Below are positions 1-8,560 of a stretch of DNA of 8,560 nucleotides, in pieces (position 1 is the stretch's first letter; each line of letters starts with the position of its first letter). Made by a program: the position numbers and the translations under genes. Origin of the DNA: a bacterium (lineage in GTDB: Bacteria > Electryoneota > JAOADG01). The notes under the pieces were generated by a model, which was given only the letters and a program-made list of their open reading frames with translations, did not search any database and was not told where the DNA came from. The stretch spans positions 1 through 8,560 of the forward strand of contig JAOADG010000039.1 of the NCBI GenBank assembly GCA_026417415.1, given 5' to 3'.

Positions 1-69
1 GAAAAACTAACTCCACCCATTTTTAAATATCGTAAAGTAACCAATTGGTGGGGCAAACCTAAGTATTAA
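1..69 (+). CDS. C-terminal end of an unidentified protein, first visible gene of the operon
   Basis: The first 22 codons of the window are open in frame 1 and end at a TAA stop at 67-69. The other two plus-strand frames close within the first 25 bases, so this is the only frame that can carry a gene end. The visible tail is basic and aromatic (Lys/Arg-rich, with a Trp-Trp-Gly near the end, closing Lys-Pro-Lys-Tyr), which is too little to assign a family. The stop lies 11 bases before the next ATG and the next gene's ribosome binding site starts two bases after it. The gene is therefore almost certainly in the same transcript as the tubulin-like gene and may be another part of the same system. 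No function is proposed. Confidence 0.7.
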   Translation, partial: EKLTPPIFKYRKVTNWWGKPKY

Positions 70-80: not shown

Positions 81-1574
81 ATGAATGTACTCATTTGTGC
101 AGGAGGTACCGGTCCTCGTGTGCTTGAATCTTTGGTTCATATGGCATGTGCAGGCGTTGGACCAGAAGAAGTTACCGTACTCATGATAGACGCAGACCAG
201 TCCAATGGCAACACCAATCGAATGAAACGCTTGTTTGAAAGTTACTTTAGTATCAAAGATTTATTTGAAAATACTGGTTTTTTTGAAACAACGTTTGACT
301 TTTTAGATCTAAAGAACGCAAATGAACGCAGTACCAATCCAAAAATTTATTCACCAGTTCAGGATAATGAACGATTACGTGACATCATCAACTTTGATGG
401 TTTGGATGCCACAGAGACCCCACCTGAACTGGCTGATGTTTTTTTCACCCGTGAGTCAGAATTGAATTTGGAACTTGATGTAGGATTCCGCGGTCATCCA
501 GCCATTGGTGCTGCCTCATTATCCCTAACCACACGCTTTACTGAAAACGATATCTGGTCCAATTTAATCAAAAAAGTTCAATTAGCAGTTGCTAATCAAA
601 CCAAACCTGTGAAAATATGTATCGTTGGCTCTGTATTCGGTGGGACTGGCGCCTCTACCTTTGAACCAATATCCAGATTTCTAAAAGATCAATTCCAAAA
701 TTTTATCCAACAAGACAAAGTAGATATTGGCGCTATTTTTATGACACCATACTTTCAATATGTCTCTGTTGACCAACAAGGAGTACACGCCAAAGCAGAC
801 CGTTTTGCTATCGCAACACGTGCAGCCGTTGAGTTTTACCAACATTTACGAGAGAATAACGAACTAAATTTCTCTTCCATGTATTGGTTAGGCGATAGAA
901 ATTTAATGGATGTGTATCCCAGTAATGGTGGACCTAAACAAGAAAATCCTTCTCATCCAGTTGAATTATTAGCAGGTATGGCGATCAATCACTTTTTTGA
1001 ATCTGAAAAACGAGATAAGTTGTGTTTATACTGTTCTCCATCCCAAAATAGTCATCGCGATCTACATTTTGGAAATCCATTCTCATGGAATGACTTACCC
1101 TTTACTACCGATAAAATACGATTCTACCGTACTGCTTTTCTGTCACTATACCGCTTTGCCATAGTGCATAACTACTTTTATATGCCTCTATTTCGTGATG
1201 AGCGATTAAAACAAAAACCAATGTACCTCCCTTGGCTGGAAGATCATAAGTTATACAACCTTCTAAATAATGATAATCTTGATAAAATGGAAAAAGTAAA
1301 AATACATTTTGAAAGATACTATTTCGAGTGGATAAAGCAATTGTACAATTCTAAAATCGGTAATGGTCGTTTCTTTAATATCTTTCCTCTAATAAACAAT
1401 GAGGCCATCCTTCAGTATCTGAATAATTTAGATTGGCAACCACCAGAAAAGGCGGGTTATACTGATGACTATGCCCTCCATGAGATTCTTACGCGTATGT
1501 GTGAATCCAAAAATGCTGCTGGAAATGGCATCAACCGTTATTTCAATCTTCTAAAGGAAGCTATCTATTATTGA
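81..1574 (+). CDS. Divergent tubulin/FtsZ-like GTP-binding protein
   Basis: The product is a 497-residue soluble protein without signal peptide or membrane helix, so probably cytoplasmic. Residues 3-20 form a strand followed by a Gly-Gly-Thr-Gly loop (G8-G11) and a helix, as in the first nucleotide loop of tubulin-like proteins. Residues 183-193 read G-S-V-F-G-G-T-G-A-S-T, a close relative of the GGGTG(S/T)G signature of tubulin and FtsZ, placed after a hydrophobic strand (KICIVGSVF). Between them is an R-G-H-P-A-I-G segment at 137-143. The signature comes later than in FtsZ (about residue 105), so 80 or so residues are inserted. I could not identify a T7 catalytic loop, so GTP binding is better supported than hydrolysis. 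It most resembles the bacterial 'tubulin-like' group that Pfam calls Tubulin_2, from memory. The start is set by the GGAGG site. It is co-transcribed with the actin/Hsp70-like gene 18 bases downstream. The fold is fairly secure; the cellular role is unknown. Confidence 0.75.
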   Translation: MNVLICAGGTGPRVLESLVHMACAGVGPEEVTVLMIDADQSNGNTNRMKRLFESYFSIKDLFENTGFFETTFDFLDLKNANERSTNPKIYSPVQDNERLRDIINFDGLDATETPPELADVFFTRESELNLELDVGFRGHPAIGAASLSLTTRFTENDIWSNLIKKVQLAVANQTKPVKICIVGSVFGGTGASTFEPISRFLKDQFQNFIQQDKVDIGAIFMTPYFQYVSVDQQGVHAKADRFAIATRAAVEFYQHLRENNELNFSSMYWLGDRNLMDVYPSNGGPKQENPSHPVELLAGMAINHFFESEKRDKLCLYCSPSQNSHRDLHFGNPFSWNDLPFTTDKIRFYRTAFLSLYRFAIVHNYFYMPLFRDERLKQKPMYLPWLEDHKLYNLLNNDNLDKMEKVKIHFERYYFEWIKQLYNSKIGNGRFFNIFPLINNEAILQYLNNLDWQPPEKAGYTDDYALHEILTRMCESKNAAGNGINRYFNLLKEAIYY

Positions 1575-1581
1575 ACTGAAT

Positions 1582-1586
1582 AGGAG
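1582..1586 (+). promoter_or_regulatory. Ribosome binding site of the actin/Hsp70-like gene
   Basis: AGGAG lies six bases before the ATG at 1593, inside the 18-base junction after the stop of the tubulin-like gene. Spacing and match are normal and support this start. Confidence 0.75.
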
Positions 1587-1592
1587 CTAACC

Positions 1593-4500
1593 ATGTTTAA
1601 TCTACCTGATTCTTTTAATCGTATTTTCCTTTATGGTATTGATCCGCAAAATAATCAGTTGAACTTACCCAATCCCAATGAATTTGCGGATGATCAGAAT
1701 AATCGTGATTTTCTTACCAAATATGTAGAATCACTCAAAAACTTTGAAACAGAAGACACACAAGCCATTCATAGCGTTCCTTCGGTATTTGCGCGTCCCA
1801 TCCTCTTTTATCAGGCATTCAAAAATGAGAAGCATCCACTTCATAAAGTCATTGTTCAAGAATGGCGCGGGCTACTTGGAATTATTGCCTTCAAAAGAGC
1901 ATATAATTTTCAATTCAATACATACGATTATACCATCGTCCCTCCAAATGAAATACAAGAAAATAGAAACGATACTGCTTTTCGCACCATTTTAAAATTG
2001 CAACGACCAAATCCGCAACAAGAATGGAATCGCCTGACTCTGCTCTATTTAGGAGGAACTGTAGCACCAGACAGGCACTACCGAGTTATTGACGGAAGTT
2101 TAATCGGTTGTACTTCTCCTTGGACCATTTTCTTTACACCTGCAGAATACCACTGTCCAGAAAAAGTGCATTGGAGTAAAAATGGTAAACTGTATGATCC
2201 ATTACAATACTTTAGAACCAGTGAAAATTGGAGTGGTATAGCAATTCTAAAAATTTGGGTTCAACACCTTTTGCTACAATTTACACAATGGGGCACACAA
2301 AATAACGAGGTCTCTGAATATACACCCATTGTAAGAAGAGAATTAGAATCCTGGCTCAGAGACATTAGATGTTACGATTCCCAAATCCATGATCTTGTTC
2401 AAAATGTTAACGTAGATAGTCATGCCCTAATCGATCGAGGTATTTACCGTTTTTTCTCAAAACCTTTAACCATTGAATTACAAGGTAATAGCGATTATTA
2501 TTTGAACAGTTCTAAGCAACCAAATACAAACCTATTGGTATTTTCACGAAGAGGATTAGATCCTACAAAAGCCGTTTATGAATTTTTTTATGGGGATTGT
2601 ATTGATACTATGAGAATGCCTGCGAAAGGCGATTCAGGATGGAAAACCAAATTGGGAGACACTATCCCTATCCCCTATATCATGGCAGAAGATGTGTTTT
2701 TTACTCCCAAGATTGCTAAGATTGAAACCACAACAGATGCATTAGATCTCAGAAACGAAGAAGATCGTAATTCTACTAACAAATTTACTATTCCTCTATC
2801 TTCAGAGTTCTTCAAATATTTTGACTTAATGGAGATTATAAAAAATAAGGAAAAATTGATAGAAATAATTGTAAACAACTATGGAACATCAGTTACTGTA
2901 AAATTAAACATTCCTTTAAAAGGAGGCGATTCATTAAAAGTTACCAAAGAATATCGTGGCGATACTGTGGTAGAAATAGAAGTACAGCCGGCCTTAGAAA
3001 TATGGCCAAATTTTGTTTCCGATGAGTGGAAAGATTATATGATGTTCTGTAATAACAAAAGTCCAAATTTCAAATATGCTCCACTACTTCAAAATGGAAC
3101 TACACTCAAATTCACTTCCAATGATCCAAATGAAAGTGAAATAAGAGTTTGGCAAAGTGAATTGGCACCGATCGGATTTGCAGTAAAAGATAAAGAGGAC
3201 TTCGAGTTAGGTATCATAGCGCGTGCAACTTTACCTCCACCAAACCGTAATGATAATGCAATAAATAACGTGTGGAAAGTGGGGGTAGATTTTGGTACCT
3301 CCAACACCGCTATTAGAGTAAAAGAAGGTAATGATAAAATTGACTTTGAATTTAAAATCAGAAACGTACTGCTCTCGAAAAACGTCCAATTTGAACCGTT
3401 CACATTTATTAAATCTACACAAGGAAACTCTATTCAATCACTTTTTCCTACATTATCTATTAAAAATAGTTTTACTTCTGTAATTCAAGCGTTAGATGAT
3501 CAGTTTTGGAACGTAAACAACTTAAAAACCCATTATTTAACCGTGACTGATGATAAAAAATACGTTATTGAATTACTTACCCATCCTGAACGATATCCAT
3601 TTGAACCGGATATCAAATGGACACAACCCGATGAAAACCAACCAGGCGAACAACATCCTATCAATCAATATCTATCTTTATTAATGCGATATATACTATG
3701 CGAAGCATATGACAACAACGTAACCGAAATCCATTTGGCGTGGTCCTACCCACTTTCTTTGCATAAAAAGATTGTAGTGACAATGGAGTTGTTCTGGAAC
3801 ACATTAATTCTTAACATTGTACGTCCGCCTTCTCTAACCATAAAAGTTAAACCAAAAACTTCGGAATCAGCTGCTATTGCGCGCTATTTGGTGTATCACT
3901 GTAGAGAAGCCAATTTTCCTGCGACAGATCTAAACATCATTGTGGATATGGGCGGGGGATCTACTGATATTGCATTTTCTAGAAGTTATGATGTTTTAAG
4001 TCAATTATCCATTCAGTTTGGTGGTAGAGATATCTTCCGAATAATTACTACAAAAAAGCAACAAGAATTTTTGCATTTTTTAAGAGATGCAACCCGTAGT
4101 GAGAATTTAATTGATGTTAAGCATAATTATGCACCATTAGCTGTTAATACAAGTTTATATTCTACTGAAGATGTGGATGCATATCAACATTCTGTAATTC
4201 AATACATGAATTTGAATCAAAACATGTTTACTTTACAATTACGCACAATTGCTTATCTATTTGTTTCTGGAATTGCTTACTTTTTAGGATTACGTTCCCA
4301 AGAATTTTACAAACACGAAGGTGGAAGCAAACAAATCAAGCTCTTTTTCTGTGGTAAAGCATCACAATTAATTACTTGGTTTGCAGTTGATCGAAATGAC
4401 GCCAAGCGAATTATAACCAGTTACTTTAATCGTGGTCTATGGGAAAAGAATCCTGACTCGGTTAATTCCGATGAATACCAAATTGAATTGCATGGGAAAT

Positions 4501-4970
4501 TATTTAATGAATCTTCATCCCATCAATTGAAAGAAGAGGTCGTAACTGGATTGCTTTGTGATGCTTTAGAAAATGAAGATCAAACTACCAACGGCCACGA
4601 TCGGACTTTTATGGGAGAAATTGGTTGGAGGATAAAAGAATCTGATGGCAATTATCGAGTACTTGATTGGAAAGAAAGTGTCAATTTAGAAACGATTAAA
4701 AAATTAGAACCTCCAGTGAATTGGAGAAATCTTCAAGAAACACAAAACCTAAATGAAAGGTGTTTTATCCTATTGTTTCAAGATTTCTGTAAACAATTCA
4801 GTAAAAATGTTTCAACAGTGGATTCAAATAGCATCCAAAATTCACTGTGTTTAAGAAATCCTGCTACCGTTCAAGCAATGATTCGTGATCCTGAAACAGG
4901 TGTTCTCCAACCTATTTTCATTTACGAATTGAAAACTATGATAAACGAATATATCGAATCTGTTTTCTGA
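1593..4970 (+). CDS. Large actin/Hsp70-superfamily ATPase with a novel N-terminal half
   Basis: A 1125-residue protein, probably cytoplasmic (no signal peptide or membrane helix seen). The actin/Hsp70 ATPase fold starts near residue 561. Phosphate-1 is V-G-V-D-F-G-T-S-N-T (D566, G568, T569), connect-1 is S-E-S-A-A-I-A (757-763), phosphate-2 is D-M-G-G-G-S-T-D (785-792), and an adenosine-like motif is L-F-F-C-G-K-A-S (917-924), after a hydrophobic connect-2-like helix. Acidic and glycine residues of both phosphate loops are intact, so ATP binding is likely. The first 560 residues match nothing I can name; they include a hydrophobic W-R-G-L-L segment (91-95) and a strand-rich part before the ATPase. 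Length exceeds DnaK (about 640) by the N-terminal half, and there is no recognisable Hsp70 substrate-binding domain. SrfB-type proteins also combine about 1000 residues with an Hsp70-like fold, but I cannot confirm that relation. It sits between the tubulin-like and membrane-protein genes and should work with both. Confidence 0.8.
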   Translation: MFNLPDSFNRIFLYGIDPQNNQLNLPNPNEFADDQNNRDFLTKYVESLKNFETEDTQAIHSVPSVFARPILFYQAFKNEKHPLHKVIVQEWRGLLGIIAFKRAYNFQFNTYDYTIVPPNEIQENRNDTAFRTILKLQRPNPQQEWNRLTLLYLGGTVAPDRHYRVIDGSLIGCTSPWTIFFTPAEYHCPEKVHWSKNGKLYDPLQYFRTSENWSGIAILKIWVQHLLLQFTQWGTQNNEVSEYTPIVRRELESWLRDIRCYDSQIHDLVQNVNVDSHALIDRGIYRFFSKPLTIELQGNSDYYLNSSKQPNTNLLVFSRRGLDPTKAVYEFFYGDCIDTMRMPAKGDSGWKTKLGDTIPIPYIMAEDVFFTPKIAKIETTTDALDLRNEEDRNSTNKFTIPLSSEFFKYFDLMEIIKNKEKLIEIIVNNYGTSVTVKLNIPLKGGDSLKVTKEYRGDTVVEIEVQPALEIWPNFVSDEWKDYMMFCNNKSPNFKYAPLLQNGTTLKFTSNDPNESEIRVWQSELAPIGFAVKDKEDFELGIIARATLPPPNRNDNAINNVWKVGVDFGTSNTAIRVKEGNDKIDFEFKIRNVLLSKNVQFEPFTFIKSTQGNSIQSLFPTLSIKNSFTSVIQALDDQFWNVNNLKTHYLTVTDDKKYVIELLTHPERYPFEPDIKWTQPDENQPGEQHPINQYLSLLMRYILCEAYDNNVTEIHLAWSYPLSLHKKIVVTMELFWNTLILNIVRPPSLTIKVKPKTSESAAIARYLVYHCREANFPATDLNIIVDMGGGSTDIAFSRSYDVLSQLSIQFGGRDIFRIITTKKQQEFLHFLRDATRSENLIDVKHNYAPLAVNTSLYSTEDVDAYQHSVIQYMNLNQNMFTLQLRTIAYLFVSGIAYFLGLRSQEFYKHEGGSKQIKLFFCGKASQLITWFAVDRNDAKRIITSYFNRGLWEKNPDSVNSDEYQIELHGKLFNESSSHQLKEEVVTGLLCDALENEDQTTNGHDRTFMGEIGWRIKESDGNYRVLDWKESVNLETIKKLEPPVNWRNLQETQNLNERCFILLFQDFCKQFSKNVSTVDSNSIQNSLCLRNPATVQAMIRDPETGVLQPIFIYELKTMINEYIESVF

Positions 4971-4975
4971 AACTA

Positions 4976-7975
4976 ATGACAATGCATTCAGTACTTCTAC
5001 TTATATTGCTGGTTTCTACTGGAACATGTAACATTTTAGATGTTACAAAAAAAGATACTACTCAATCCATCAAACCTGATGATACCATCCAATGGTATAT
5101 TAAAAACTTTAATTTAAAAGATACAGCCAAATACAAAGATACAATTCAATGGATAGCCTATCATACGGATACATTGAAGTTTGTTCTATTGCACAAAATC
5201 CAGAAAGATACGATTACCATTTCATTCACAACAACGCAAAACGATACTAAAAAGAAAACATTAGTTATACCCCATCTAAGATTAAACTTAAATCACCCAG
5301 AAAATGATACCTTTCGTTGGAATAAGACTAAGAATACGGATGATCAAATATACATTTTTGAGATAGCTCCAAGTAAAGATTTTAAAAATCCAGTAATTAA
5401 GGATTCTACAAAGGATACATTTAAGGTATTAGATAAGAAAAAACATTCACACAAACACGAGTATTTTGCACGTGTATTTTCTATTGTGGGAAAGGATACG
5501 ATTTACTCTAATGAAGTGAAGTTTTCAGTTCCCATCTCATTCTGGAAAAGATGGTGGTGGGTTCTTATTCTAATTTTAGGATTAGTAATTGTTTTACTTT
5601 ATATTCTACCCAAACACCGCAAAAAGAGTGAGAATACAGATTTAAACTCACAATCAAGTAGTTCTACACAACATCAAGATGGGAAGCAAAACAATGGAAT
5701 AGTAAATTTATCTCAGTCAAAAGTTATTTTAAAACATCCAAACAACAGTGCTGCAGACATTAAACCACCCATCACTTTTGAATGGGATGGGTCTGGATAC
5801 AATGAATTTGAATTACAAATTGCTGAAGATGAAAATTTTCAAACATGTATTGTGAAAGAAAAGATCAAAGATGGTTATCAAAAAGAGTTATCATTGAATG
5901 AACTACAAAGTGGAAAAACATACTATTGGAGAGTGATACCGATTACCTTTCAAAATAATACTCAATTTTCCTCTGAAGTTTATTCTTTTTCCATTTATAA
6001 GAAACCACCACCCAAACCTATTTTAGTTTCTCCTCAAAACGAAGCGACTCAAATTCAAACACAAACCATAGATTTTTGTTGGAATTCAAATGAAGAAACT
6101 GCAACCTATGAATTTCAATTATCAGAAGATCAAGAATTTACTTCCAACGTTAGAGTGTTCTTTACCAACGATAAGTCCACAATTATAAGCGATTTATTAC
6201 GTCAAAAAAACTATTATTGGCGTGTTCGCTGTAAAAATGATGCTGGTGAAAGCGAGTGGTCAGATGTTTTCACCTTTCAAACCCAACCAATTAACATTTC
6301 TGAAGTTCTTCAATTCGTTTTAAATTATATCGCTGATTATTGGCAAAAAGTAAGTGAAGACCCTAAACGTGCAAAAGATGAAAATTGGTATTTGCCTATT
6401 AAAAAAGAACTTCAACAATTGGCAGAACGCGAGTGGAATATTCAAAACATTTACTACAACTTAGATGAACTATGGAAATACTCTGCAAATCCAAAACAAG
6501 AAATCCCCTTCAAACCTCACAGGTCTGGGTACTGGGTGTTCATTCCCAAAAGCAGCGATCAGTATTACGTAATTCCTATGGATCACTTTCTATTTACACA
6601 ATCAGATGGAATAGGTTATGTTGGACATTTGTACTCAAATATTGATCGTTCTAAACCGTTAGATATTGAACTATTTCATACGATGCGCGTGGTTGAACCT
6701 GCTGAATTTAAAAAAACTGATCATGGTTTTTTATGGGTAAAACAAGGTGTTATTACTTGGGATGACAAGAGGATGGCTAGTCCAATGACCCAAAAACAAG
6801 AATCCTTTCCAATGACCCATAAATTAGCTAAACAGATTGATGAAGTCATGAACGATAAAATTAAAGAATTACAAAACAAATTAAAACAATTGAATTCAGA
6901 AATGGACTCTAACAAAAAAGAGCTTCAATCTTTAACAAATAAATTGGCTCAATTATCTATACAGATGACCAATTCCAATTCGCAAAAAGTTTTTGATGAT
7001 GTACAGAAAGACATCAATGAAATCAAAAGTGATTTGCTAAAATTGACAAAAGAAACAGAACAACAAAATGAATTACTTAAACAACAAATCGCATCTTTAA
7101 AAAACAACCCATACGGTGCTATTGTAAAACAATTATTCAATGATTCTACCTTTAATAACACTCTAAAAGAATTGATCCTATCACTTTTGTTAAGCGAGGT
7201 TCAAACCATTAAAGAAGAGTTTTTGAAGATTTTAGACGAACGAGAAATAAAATTGGAACAATTTTTCTTTAGCAAGATAGACCAAATTAGAAACAATTTA
7301 GATGCACGAATAGACAAAGTAAATGAAAAATACAATGAAATCAGTCAAACAATTTCGGCGCCATACCCTAAAAAATCATCTCCTATAACTCCAAAACGAG
7401 ACTTACAAAATACTAAAGACATAACAAGAGGTTGCACAGATAATAGGTTGTCAAACGTTCAAACTCGGATTTCAGAGGAAAGTACATTAGAGATAAAAGA
7501 AAATATTTCATCTCTATCAGAGAATGATAAAAAAGAGTACTATCGTTTTATTGAAGATATTAAAGAAGCAGCATGGTTTAAAACTATAGTGGAAATCACC
7601 ATTGATTGTTCTTCCCATTTAAACGACATGTCACAAATGACTAAATTCGTTAGTGAACAAAGCAACTGGGAAGCAAAAATCAAGGTTATTGAAAAAGAGA
7701 ACGAATCCTATACATTTGAAATTTCAGATCAATTAAACAGTCCCAAGCCCAAAATGATTTATCTTTTTCAAAAAAACAAACCCCAATGGGCAGCATCACT
7801 AGTACTTCCCAGAGAATACAAACTTTACAATGACAAACAATTGGCTTCTCTTTTAGGCCTAGACGCAAAAAAGCAATACGAGATCCAACAGATTCTTTTC
7901 CCTGCCATCTTTTACAACCATGGAAACTATTTACAACTATGCAGGAAGATGGAAACAAAACATAGAGAGATTTGA
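4976..7975 (+). CDS. Membrane-anchored FN3 and coiled-coil protein, presumed partner of the tubulin- and actin-like proteins
   Basis: The 999-residue product starts with a short hydrophobic run (residues 6-13) resembling a signal peptide but without Lys/Arg before it. Next come a Lys- and Asp-Thr-rich ectodomain (20-186) ending in an FN3-like sandwich (about 100-186), one transmembrane helix (about 193-211) followed by P-K-H-R-K-K, a polar linker, two FN3-like domains (about 250-341 and 344-438, each with Y-Y-W-R-V at 316-320 and 413-417), a small module (515-595), a coiled coil (about 617-711), a second helical stretch (741-795) and a C-terminal module with a related motif (about 942-992). 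The basic flank after the helix puts the C-terminal 790 residues in the cytoplasm. There is no Shine-Dalgarno site; the ATG lies 5 bases after the preceding stop, so translation is probably coupled. ATG at 4982 is an alternative start. It looks like an anchor or signal-transmitting scaffold; no enzyme motif was found. Confidence 0.75.
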   Translation: MTMHSVLLLILLVSTGTCNILDVTKKDTTQSIKPDDTIQWYIKNFNLKDTAKYKDTIQWIAYHTDTLKFVLLHKIQKDTITISFTTTQNDTKKKTLVIPHLRLNLNHPENDTFRWNKTKNTDDQIYIFEIAPSKDFKNPVIKDSTKDTFKVLDKKKHSHKHEYFARVFSIVGKDTIYSNEVKFSVPISFWKRWWWVLILILGLVIVLLYILPKHRKKSENTDLNSQSSSSTQHQDGKQNNGIVNLSQSKVILKHPNNSAADIKPPITFEWDGSGYNEFELQIAEDENFQTCIVKEKIKDGYQKELSLNELQSGKTYYWRVIPITFQNNTQFSSEVYSFSIYKKPPPKPILVSPQNEATQIQTQTIDFCWNSNEETATYEFQLSEDQEFTSNVRVFFTNDKSTIISDLLRQKNYYWRVRCKNDAGESEWSDVFTFQTQPINISEVLQFVLNYIADYWQKVSEDPKRAKDENWYLPIKKELQQLAEREWNIQNIYYNLDELWKYSANPKQEIPFKPHRSGYWVFIPKSSDQYYVIPMDHFLFTQSDGIGYVGHLYSNIDRSKPLDIELFHTMRVVEPAEFKKTDHGFLWVKQGVITWDDKRMASPMTQKQESFPMTHKLAKQIDEVMNDKIKELQNKLKQLNSEMDSNKKELQSLTNKLAQLSIQMTNSNSQKVFDDVQKDINEIKSDLLKLTKETEQQNELLKQQIASLKNNPYGAIVKQLFNDSTFNNTLKELILSLLLSEVQTIKEEFLKILDEREIKLEQFFFSKIDQIRNNLDARIDKVNEKYNEISQTISAPYPKKSSPITPKRDLQNTKDITRGCTDNRLSNVQTRISEESTLEIKENISSLSENDKKEYYRFIEDIKEAAWFKTIVEITIDCSSHLNDMSQMTKFVSEQSNWEAKIKVIEKENESYTFEISDQLNSPKPKMIYLFQKNKPQWAASLVLPREYKLYNDKQLASLLGLDAKKQYEIQQILFPAIFYNHGNYLQLCRKMETKHREI
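5054..5500 (+). repeat. Dispersed Asp-Thr (GATAC) repeats in the ectodomain of the membrane protein
   Basis: Ten Asp-Thr pairs occur between residues 27 and 175 (Asp at 27, 36, 49, 55, 65, 78, 90, 111, 147, 174). Six are Lys-Asp-Thr and two are Asp-Thr-Ile-Gln-Trp. Every one is written GAT-AC(N), so the pentamer GATAC recurs ten times in about 450 bases. Spacing is irregular (6 to 36 residues), which argues for a composition-driven or eroded repeat, not a clean tandem array. The pairs stop at the transmembrane helix, so they belong to the predicted outside part only. Confidence 0.75.
5552..5608 (+). other. Transmembrane segment of the membrane protein
   Basis: Residues 193-211 (W-W-W followed by 16 mostly Leu/Ile/Val residues) are the only long hydrophobic run in the protein. 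Lys-Arg precedes it and Pro-Lys-His-Arg-Lys-Lys follows it. The heavier basic flank is on the C-terminal side, consistent with the N-terminus outside and the C-terminus in the cytoplasm. Confidence 0.85.
5723..6289 (+). repeat. Two tandem FN3-like domains in the predicted cytoplasmic part
   Basis: Residues 250-341 and 344-438 share the same plan: a Pro-containing first strand (L-K-H-P / L-V-S-P), F-x-W about 15-20 residues later, a Y-x-F-x-L-Q-[IL] type strand with E-D-[EQ]-[NE]-F after it, then Y-Y-W-R-V in the F strand, and a Ser-rich edge before the last strand. This is the layout of bacterial FN3-like domains that bind proteins or carbohydrates. The copies are divergent at DNA level, so the duplication is old. 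Confidence 0.75.
6518..6760 (+). repeat. Module copy A (VIP...PAEF) of the membrane protein
   Basis: Residues 515-595 form a compact, probably beta-rich module: Y-W-V-F-I-P, then Y-V-I-P-M-D-H-F-L-F (P534), then V-V-E-P-A-E-F (P575-A576-F578) and a closing F-L-W-V-K-Q-G. It sits between the FN3 pair and the coiled coil. The end of the protein repeats the same order of motifs (copy B). From memory it resembles an unnamed domain of large bacterial regulatory proteins whose end reads roughly P-A-x-F ... W-x-L-x-x-x-G; this is unverified. Confidence 0.5.
6781..6819 (+). repeat. Short in-frame direct repeat before the coiled coil
   Basis: The 12-mer TCCAATGACCCA occurs at 6781-6792 and again at 6808-6819, an offset of 27 bases (nine codons). 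It encodes Pro-Met-Thr twice (S-P-M-T-Q-K and F-P-M-T-H-K) in the linker between module A and the coiled coil. It is probably a small slippage duplication with no evident function. Confidence 0.6.
6824..7108 (+). other. Long coiled-coil segment of the membrane protein
   Basis: Residues about 617-711 are rich in Lys, Glu, Gln and Leu, with hydrophobic residues at heptad-like spacing (for example I-K-E-L-Q-N-K-L-K-Q-L and N-E-L-L-K-Q-Q-I). There is no Pro between residue 617 and P712. It is likely to oligomerise or to extend toward a partner. A second, shorter helical stretch follows at 741-795. Confidence 0.75.
7799..7951 (+). repeat. Module copy B (VLP...PAIF) at the C-terminus of the membrane protein
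   Basis: Residues 942-992 contain L-V-L-P-R-E-Y-K-L-Y (P945) and, 31 residues later, I-L-F-P-A-I-F (P976-A977-F979) followed by H-G and a short strand. The order matches copy A at 515-595, where the corresponding prolines are 41 residues apart. Identity is low, so this is a proposed distant duplication. Confidence 0.45.
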
Positions 7976-8017: not shown

Positions 8018-8341
8018 TCATTTTAATTTTACGTAGTTGAGTGTCATCCCATTATCAAAACTGAGAGTAAGTTTGTTTTTTTGGATGGTCACTTTTGCAG
8101 GTTGGTCACCTACAATTCCGCCAAGGTAGCCACCTCCGCGAAATACGATGCGGTTGTTCCCAAGGTTTTGATAGGTCGCGCTTAGTGGGAATCCGAAGGT
8201 GGTAACAATGACCGTTCTATCTTTTAAGAATTCAATGGTATGCATTCCGTTTTCGCTTTGCCATTTCCCTTGAAGCTGTGATTCAAGGGAGCAGGAAAGG
8301 AGAAGGAAAGGGATTATCAACAAATAGATGAACTTCTTCAT
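8018..8341 (-). CDS. Small lipoprotein, lipocalin-like in appearance
   Basis: A 107-residue precursor with a classic lipoprotein signal: M-K-K, a hydrophobic core, and lipobox L-L-S-C with Cys17 as the lipidated residue, leaving a mature chain of 91 residues. The mature part has G-K-W just after the Cys (25-27), then alternating strands with T-I-E-F, R-T-V-I-V-T-T and a closing L-N-Y-V-K-L. Such Gly-x-Trp openings followed by short strands are common in small lipocalin-like lipoproteins; the exact family is not recognised. The start is supported by an AAGGGTG site in front and the N-terminal signal. It lies 23 bases downstream of the Sel1-repeat gene on the same strand, so the two are probably co-transcribed, and it converges with the large operon. 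Its GC content (about 45% in sampled lines) is clearly above that of the neighbouring operon gene. It is probably unrelated to the tubulin/actin operon. Confidence 0.85.
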   Translation of the reverse strand: MKKFIYLLIIPFLLLSCSLESQLQGKWQSENGMHTIEFLKDRTVIVTTFGFPLSATYQNLGNNRIVFRGGGYLGGIVGDQPAKVTIQKNKLTLSFDNGMTLNYVKLK

Positions 8342-8364: not shown

Positions 8365-8560
8365 TCAACAATTCTTAATTAGCTTAACGATTACGAACAC
8401 AATTACTATAATAACCCAGAAATACTGAATTGATTCTTTTGAAACCTGTTCTTGATTAATCGGTTTGTTCTTGTTCTCATTCTTGTTTTTAAACTCAATC
8501 TCTTCAATACGCTCAATAGCATCCTTGTCACCTTGCTCGGCGGATTTACGATACCACTTT
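8365..8560 (-). CDS. C-terminal part of a Sel1-repeat protein with a C-terminal membrane helix
   Basis: Only the last 64 codons are inside the window; the gene enters from the right edge and ends at a TGA (8365-8367 on the plus strand). The visible part begins K-W-Y-R-K-S-A-E-Q-G-D-K-D-A, which is the first helix and turn of a Sel1-like (TPR-related) repeat, followed by a degenerate second helix. A charged, Asn/Lys-rich linker leads to a hydrophobic run of about 17 residues (roughly residues 44-60, bases 8380-8430) ending L-I-K-N-C. The helix at the extreme C-terminus suggests a tail-anchored protein with its repeats in the cytoplasm, unless a signal peptide lies outside the window. Sel1 repeats usually act as protein-binding scaffolds. 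It is probably co-transcribed with the lipoprotein gene. Confidence 0.8.
   Translation of the reverse strand, partial: KWYRKSAEQGDKDAIERIEEIEFKNKNENKNKPINQEQVSKESIQYFWVIIVIVFVIVKLIKNC

Follow-up and report, generated by a model that had tools for sequence, protein, structure and literature searches.

A paired tubulin-like and actin-like gene in an accessory bacterial operon, possibly one half of an envelope-spanning machine

The window analysed here, 8,560 nucleotides long, is one entire contig (C23, JAOADG010000039.1) of a 2.2 Mb, 40-contig bacterial genome. It carries three adjacent plus-strand genes, separated by junctions of 18 and 5 bases, as a first-pass annotation made from the letters alone had described (Table 1). 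These encode a tubulin-like protein (gene 1), a large protein with an actin/Hsp70-fold ATPase domain (gene 2) and a membrane scaffold (gene 3). We found that genes 1 and 2 are kept side by side in distant bacteria, that the real unit has at least five genes and not three, and that it is accessory, being gained or lost as one block. It is possible, if short of probable, that an accessory machine which spans the envelope and moves horizontally has its cytoplasmic and scaffold half encoded in the window.

Gene 1 passed the Pfam Tubulin_2 model (35.7 bits against a cut-off of 27) over the glycine-loop region only, and 66 of 68 relatives matched the same model with an E-value of 0.01 or better. The structure model computed from the 68 aligned sequences had a predicted local distance difference test score (pLDDT) of 90.1 and a predicted template modelling score (pTM) of 0.92. 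Its best structure match was FtsZ with GTP-gamma-S (Z score 16.1, 220 residues, 4.3 Å), and all 50 structure matches listed for it were FtsZ, CetZ, PhuZ or tubulin. The fold assignment rests on this model, because the gene 1 profile, searched against the sequences of solved structures, gave no match. The structural match spans residues 1-357, and in the model helices appear to take the place of the C-terminal tubulin domain, with no extended coiled coil. In the T4 loop, F186, G187, T189, G190 and A191 were found in 68/68 sequences and G188 in 67/68, residue 192 being serine or alanine; the wider pattern S.FGGTGA hardly varies among the 68 sequences, and the T1 loop is conserved as well. The Tubulin_2 score, the T4 loop and the model matches together bear out the tubulin fold first proposed for gene 1. 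For the T7 catalytic loop (NxDxxD), the alignment shows no conserved acidic pair after the helix at residues 343-372, and the conserved residues past this helix are a proline and a tryptophan. With an acidic T7 loop absent after helix H7, canonical GTP hydrolysis between gene 1 subunits is unlikely, judging from the alignment.

The structure model of gene 2 was moderate (pLDDT 76, pTM 0.70, 49 sequences). Residues 558-998 matched MreB (4czk, Z score 12.6, 284 residues, 3.2 Å), as well as MamK, FtsA, DnaK and actin, with Z scores of 10.7-11.8 for DnaK, FtsA and actin; an N-terminal half of about 540 residues accompanies this domain. In the phosphate-1 motif, D566 and G568 were found in 49/49 sequences, and in phosphate-2, D785 and D792 were each found in 47/49 and G787 in 48/49. 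The actin/Hsp70 nature of gene 2, predicted from these two motifs, is thus upheld by their conservation and by the fold matches to MreB, FtsA and DnaK. Beyond that prediction, an adenosine-type motif was found, with G921 in 49/49 sequences and a family consensus of GGNGS. No Pfam family cut-off was reached (MreB_Mbl, 14.3 bits against 27), the Pfam matches being sub-threshold ones to MreB and Ppx only. A SrfB/SrfABC identity was considered and rejected, as none of 39 scanned gene 2 homologues matched SrfB. Two side observations concern actin-like neighbours. Four cyanobacterial loci (L048, L074, L082 and L099) hold, about 2-3.5 kb past the actin-like gene, a second, shorter actin-like open reading frame (ORF) of 730-994 residues. 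In another locus, two genes past the actin-like gene, a 906-residue zinc-ribbon protein (L078:16721-19438) has HSP70 matches and weak SrfB matches.

The make-up given by the first-pass annotation for gene 3, a signal-like start, a transmembrane (TM) helix, an FN3 domain and a coiled coil, was confirmed. The TM helix is followed by KHRKK and therefore, by the positive-inside rule, the C-terminal part of about 790 residues is predicted to be cytoplasmic. Iterated profiles detected in gene 3 a beta-domain common to the third-component proteins of other operons, where it lies C-terminally. It matched a profile of cyanobacterial and other scaffolds, and the protein of locus L008 by BLASTP (9e-8). 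Otherwise the third component is highly variable among operons, the common parts being only this domain of about 80 residues and a coiled coil. The complex docked on gene 3 that the first-pass annotation proposed stays a putative one.

A scan of genome contigs with the single gene 1 sequence found nothing, and a five-row alignment was used instead. It yielded at least 583 gene 1 relatives, and 80 loci were retained. Relatives had been met first in the same phylum (genome G036), on plasmids of Picosynechococcus and Gloeothece, and in Prevotella; one locus, L005, lies on a plasmid of Picosynechococcus sp. PCC 7003. The retained loci belong to Acidobacteriota, Poribacteria, Aminicenantes, cyanobacteria, Selenomonadaceae, Bacteroidales, Pelagibacteraceae, Nitrospirae, Rhodospirillales, Phycisphaerales and others, for about ten phyla overall. 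The neighbourhood analysis covered 87 loci, 3 of which were too short to judge. An actin-like gene was found beside the tubulin-like gene, on the same strand and in the same order, in 66 of the 84 testable loci, and in 63 of these 66 no more than about 250 bp separate its start from the tubulin-like stop. Distance matrices of the tubulin-like and actin-like proteins were correlated (r 0.966, 47 loci), and none of 2000 permutations gave a value as high. At the level of sequence, this shows co-inheritance of the gene 1 and gene 2 families, not contact.

Clustering of the neighbours gave a conserved order: an exported lipoprotein (position -2), a small TM protein (-1), the tubulin-like protein, the actin-like protein and the third component. 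Genes for vWA-like lipoproteins were present in 36 loci, nearly always at position -2, and the aligned proteins share a DxSxS of the metal ion-dependent adhesion site (MIDAS) type and a conserved aspartate. Small TM genes lie directly upstream of the tubulin-like gene in at least 57 loci. If the three genes of the window formed a unit, as had been proposed, they should stay adjacent across genomes. Adjacency across unrelated genomes is what was found, but the number of genes in the proposal is too small. The same proposal held that the pairing of both cytoskeletal folds is uncommon, and this we judge to be right.

The two upstream genes were also traced in the source genome. The first 69 bases of the window, just 5′ of gene 1, end in the C-terminal motif of the small TM family (compare ...LTPPKFRYRPWPKWLL in L008); this tail was read after a search for the small TM gene elsewhere in the genome gave nothing at a useful score. 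Contig C36 breaks off within a vWA-like lipoprotein gene, and the operon continues upstream on this other contig. The gap between the two contigs is predicted to be about 1 kb long and to contain what is missing of the lipoprotein and small TM genes.

We then considered how the unit is distributed. Sampling of 386 genomes around the source genome gave true gene 2 homologues in 4, nine further rings in this sample being set aside as short phosphate-2 matches to other actin-fold proteins. In two other phyla, 1 of 9 and 5 of 124 genomes had such a homologue. An empty site was found for one genome, G178, which has 11,252 bp (L025:337-11588) where two relatives of the same genus have 90 bp (L123:13526-13615) and 77 bp (the matching gap in L124). 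The chromosome is collinear across the site in both relatives, and the cassette ends showed no short direct repeat. The cassette encodes, in all, a lipoprotein, a small TM protein, the tubulin-like and actin-like proteins, a coiled-coil protein, MotA-like and MotB-like proteins and an SNase-like protein. From the patchy distribution and the empty site, we conclude that the unit is accessory and was acquired or lost in one block. The gene set, present in unrelated phyla, looks to be mobile.

These data bear on the main rival explanation, which we hold to be somewhat unlikely, namely ordinary cell biology, with the tubulin-like and actin-like proteins giving the inner membrane its shape or forming vesicles. 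Such a function was predicted for the FtsZl1 family by Makarova and Koonin in 2010, who in the available text (PMC2875224) associated it with vWA, GTPase and OmpA partners and proposed membrane remodelling. The Tubulin_2 matches of the gene 1 relatives agree with it, and so does the membrane linkage of the upstream and third-component partners. However, patchiness even within a genus and a clean insertion are unlike a housekeeping cytoskeleton, and the T7 loop is not conserved.

Downstream of the core, 11 loci have MotB/OmpA (ZorB)-like genes, in almost every case accompanied by a MotA (ZorA)-like gene. Genes for exported hydrolases also come directly after the core in several loci, often 2-20 bases from the preceding gene: SNase genes in G178 and L102, trypsin-like genes in L102, L096 and L078, aspartyl-protease genes in L105 and L093, and a subtilase gene in L092. 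This is suggestive of hydrolases as exchangeable effectors of the operon. The same genes could serve transport or uptake: the motor and scaffold would bring DNA or protein in or out through the envelope, and this cargo would be processed by the exported nucleases and proteases. Indeed, a reviewer of the 2010 FtsZl1 paper suggested transport (PMC2875224, available text). This explanation is improbable, as the loci have no conserved pore, secretin or channel, and the motor genes are missing from most of them.

In the mechanism that we favour, the lipoprotein would detect a ligand, or damage, on the outer side of the inner membrane, and the small TM protein would relay the signal inward. The tubulin-like protein, a predicted GTP binder, would probably not treadmill as a filament but serve as an assembly switch dependent on GTP, because its T7 catalytic loop is missing. 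On the membrane scaffold, the actin/Hsp70-like ATPase would remodel or build the tubulin-like assembly, with a ZorAB-type ion-driven motor, exported hydrolases, or both receiving the output. By analogy with Zorya, the most likely role would be to guard the envelope in conflict, rather than housekeeping. We consider it probable that the operon encodes a linked multi-protein machine, and infer that its proteins form one physical complex. A role in conflict, against phage or competitor attack, is conceivable, with the balance leaning against it. Unlikely as a whole is the most complete version, a widespread mobile defence or conflict system in which a GTP switch of the tubulin fold, working with an actin-fold ATPase, passes an outside signal from a MIDAS lipoprotein across the inner membrane to a ZorAB-type ion-driven motor and to exchangeable exported nucleases and proteases. 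The putative envelope, stress or conflict role first suggested from the window gains new support from the patchiness, the empty site, and the ZorAB-like motors and exported hydrolases that adjoin some loci.

Several observations weigh against this mechanism. Most loci lack ZorAB, and in the source genome the ZorAB-like genes lie on the opposite strand, about 5-7 kb past the window end. A crude motif test for hydrolases gave 5 of 168 operon ORFs against 13 of 766 elsewhere, which is no clear excess, and comparison of the locus flanks with PADLOC and Pfam gave no clear enrichment in defence genes. Neither a Pfam vWA model nor a solved vWA structure was matched by the exported lipoprotein, so that its vWA label rests on motifs. 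Finally, the actin-like gene is missing in 18 of the 84 loci, of which 17 are of the Selenomonadaceae type and one is cyanobacterial, the latter with transposase-like genes directly downstream. Tubulin-like genes with no actin-like gene nearby are what would be seen if the cassette were only co-inherited and the two proteins acted in separate processes. We find this improbable given the constant order, the few-base gaps and the matched trees over about ten phyla, and most of the Selenomonadaceae-type copies form a shorter group (about 465 residues). As an observation apart, the Selenomonadaceae loci that lack the actin-like gene (L032, L055, L072, L083 and others) often have a conserved 204-residue protein and a second membrane protein which, by eye, is LytR-CpsA-Psr-like.

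Table 1. Features of the 8,560-nucleotide window; aa, amino acids.
Feature	Position	Strand	Remarks
3′ end of small TM protein gene	1-69	+	C-terminus EKLTPPIFKYRKVTNWWGKPKY*; remainder off contig
Gene 1, tubulin-like protein, 497 aa	81-1574	+	GTPase fold at about residues 1-357
T4 glycine loop FGGTGAS, gene 1 residues 186-192	636-656	+	conservation, 68 sequences
Gene 2, actin/Hsp70-fold ATPase with large N-terminal region, 1125 aa	1593-4970	+	
Actin/Hsp70-fold domain, gene 2 residues 558-998	3264-4586	+	MreB structure match
Phosphate-1 motif DFGTSNT, gene 2 residues 566-572	3288-3308	+	conservation, 49 sequences
Phosphate-2 motif DMGGGSTD, gene 2 residues 785-792	3945-3968	+	conservation, 49 sequences
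Adenosine-type motif, gene 2 residues 917-926	4341-4370	+	conservation, 49 sequences
Gene 3, membrane scaffold, 999 aa	4976-7975	+	
TM helix, gene 3 residues 193-211, then KHRKK	5552-5608	+	orientation inferred, positive-inside rule
Ig/FN3 domain, gene 3 residues 353-437	6032-6286	+	fn3 E 2.6e-6; Ig_Rha78A_N E 1.7e-9
Beta-domain, gene 3 residues 503-584	6482-6727	+	scaffold-profile match E 4.5e-7, searched against this single sequence
Coiled coil, gene 3 about residues 615-710	6818-7105	+	region gives only coiled-coil-type matches
Lipocalin-like lipoprotein ORF	8018-8341	-	right end, outside operon
End of kinase/Sel1 gene	8365-8559	-	right end, outside operon

Scans of the window for promoters and terminators gave signals at chance level. 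Its right end overlaps the start of contig C10 by exactly 141 bp, an overlap that is unique in the genome. On C10, a ZorB-like gene (4368-5093, minus strand; ZorB2, 1e-70) and a ZorA-like gene (5059-6624, minus strand; ZorA2, 1.4e-27) form one opposite-strand run with a lipoprotein gene and an M48-type peptidase gene, the latter recognised by eye. The same contig (L111, 3-13221, minus strand) also encodes three Ser/Thr kinases, two of them with Sel1 repeats, a PP2C-type phosphatase and an FHA-ABC transporter. No ZorC, ZorD or ZorE was recognised among the seven C10 proteins scanned. In other genomes, McrBC-type restriction genes (L007:2555-5360) lie a short way upstream of the Prevotella operon on the opposite strand, and a restriction-endonuclease-like protein, 'REase-ARP' (Pfam 1e-37, L026:20112-20942), is encoded downstream of the Paracidobacterium operon; a literature search under the latter name found no paper.

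It is rare for tubulin-fold and actin-fold genes to be neighbours in a single unit that is both conserved and transferable. With a compact operon in cyanobacteria, Bacteroidales, acidobacteria, Poribacteria, Pelagibacteraceae and others, the idea of one machine using two cytoskeletal switches becomes testable, and the link to a Zorya-type motor and exported hydrolases offers a concrete hypothesis for a set of at least 583 relatives, uncharacterised since the FtsZl1 prediction of 2010. A literature search on the tubulin-like and actin-like combination gave nothing on point, tubulin is not mentioned in two motor papers (PMC11890865, PMC12505986), and the constant actin-like partner, the scaffold, the ZorAB link and the empty site were not found in the searchable literature. 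The first-pass annotation had called the system possibly undescribed; this may hold for the actin-like partner, which does not appear in the available text of the 2010 paper, but not for the association of tubulin-like, vWA and OmpA proteins, already predicted there (PMC2875224).

The present set resembles FtsZl1, as far as the available text of that paper describes it, in having a divergent tubulin-superfamily protein with no recognisable T7 loop beside exported proteins, which in the present set are putatively of vWA type, with OmpA-type proteins and protein kinases nearby. Unlike most FtsZl1 members, in which an extended coiled coil precedes a helical C-terminal domain, gene 1, of 497 residues, shows no extended coiled coil in its model. 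Moreover, no P-loop GTPase was seen among the operon genes scanned here, and the actin/Hsp70-fold partner is constant here and absent from that text, although the supplementary families A1-A2 and B1-B9 may overlap. The DO-GTPase GAP1-N2 systems (Kaur et al. 2020, PMC7159879) likewise include tubulin-domain, HSP70, FN3 and vWA proteins in mobile neighbourhoods, many of them membrane-linked. In these systems, however, tubulin and HSP70 occur in themes that do not overlap. Their core consists of a TRAFAC GTPase and GAP1, neither of which was found in the window or in the scanned operon genes of L027. They are also nearly absent from cyanobacteria, where the present set is frequent. With Zorya, the unit shares ZorA/ZorB-like motor genes, adjoining the core in 11 loci and present on C10 in the source genome, roughly 8 kb downstream of gene 3, but its core genes have no Zorya counterpart and no ZorC, ZorD or ZorE was recognised among the C10 proteins scanned. 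Gene 2, lastly, has in its residues 558-998 the fold and nucleotide motifs of MreB, FtsA and DnaK, from which it differs in scoring below every Pfam cut-off and in its added N-terminal half.
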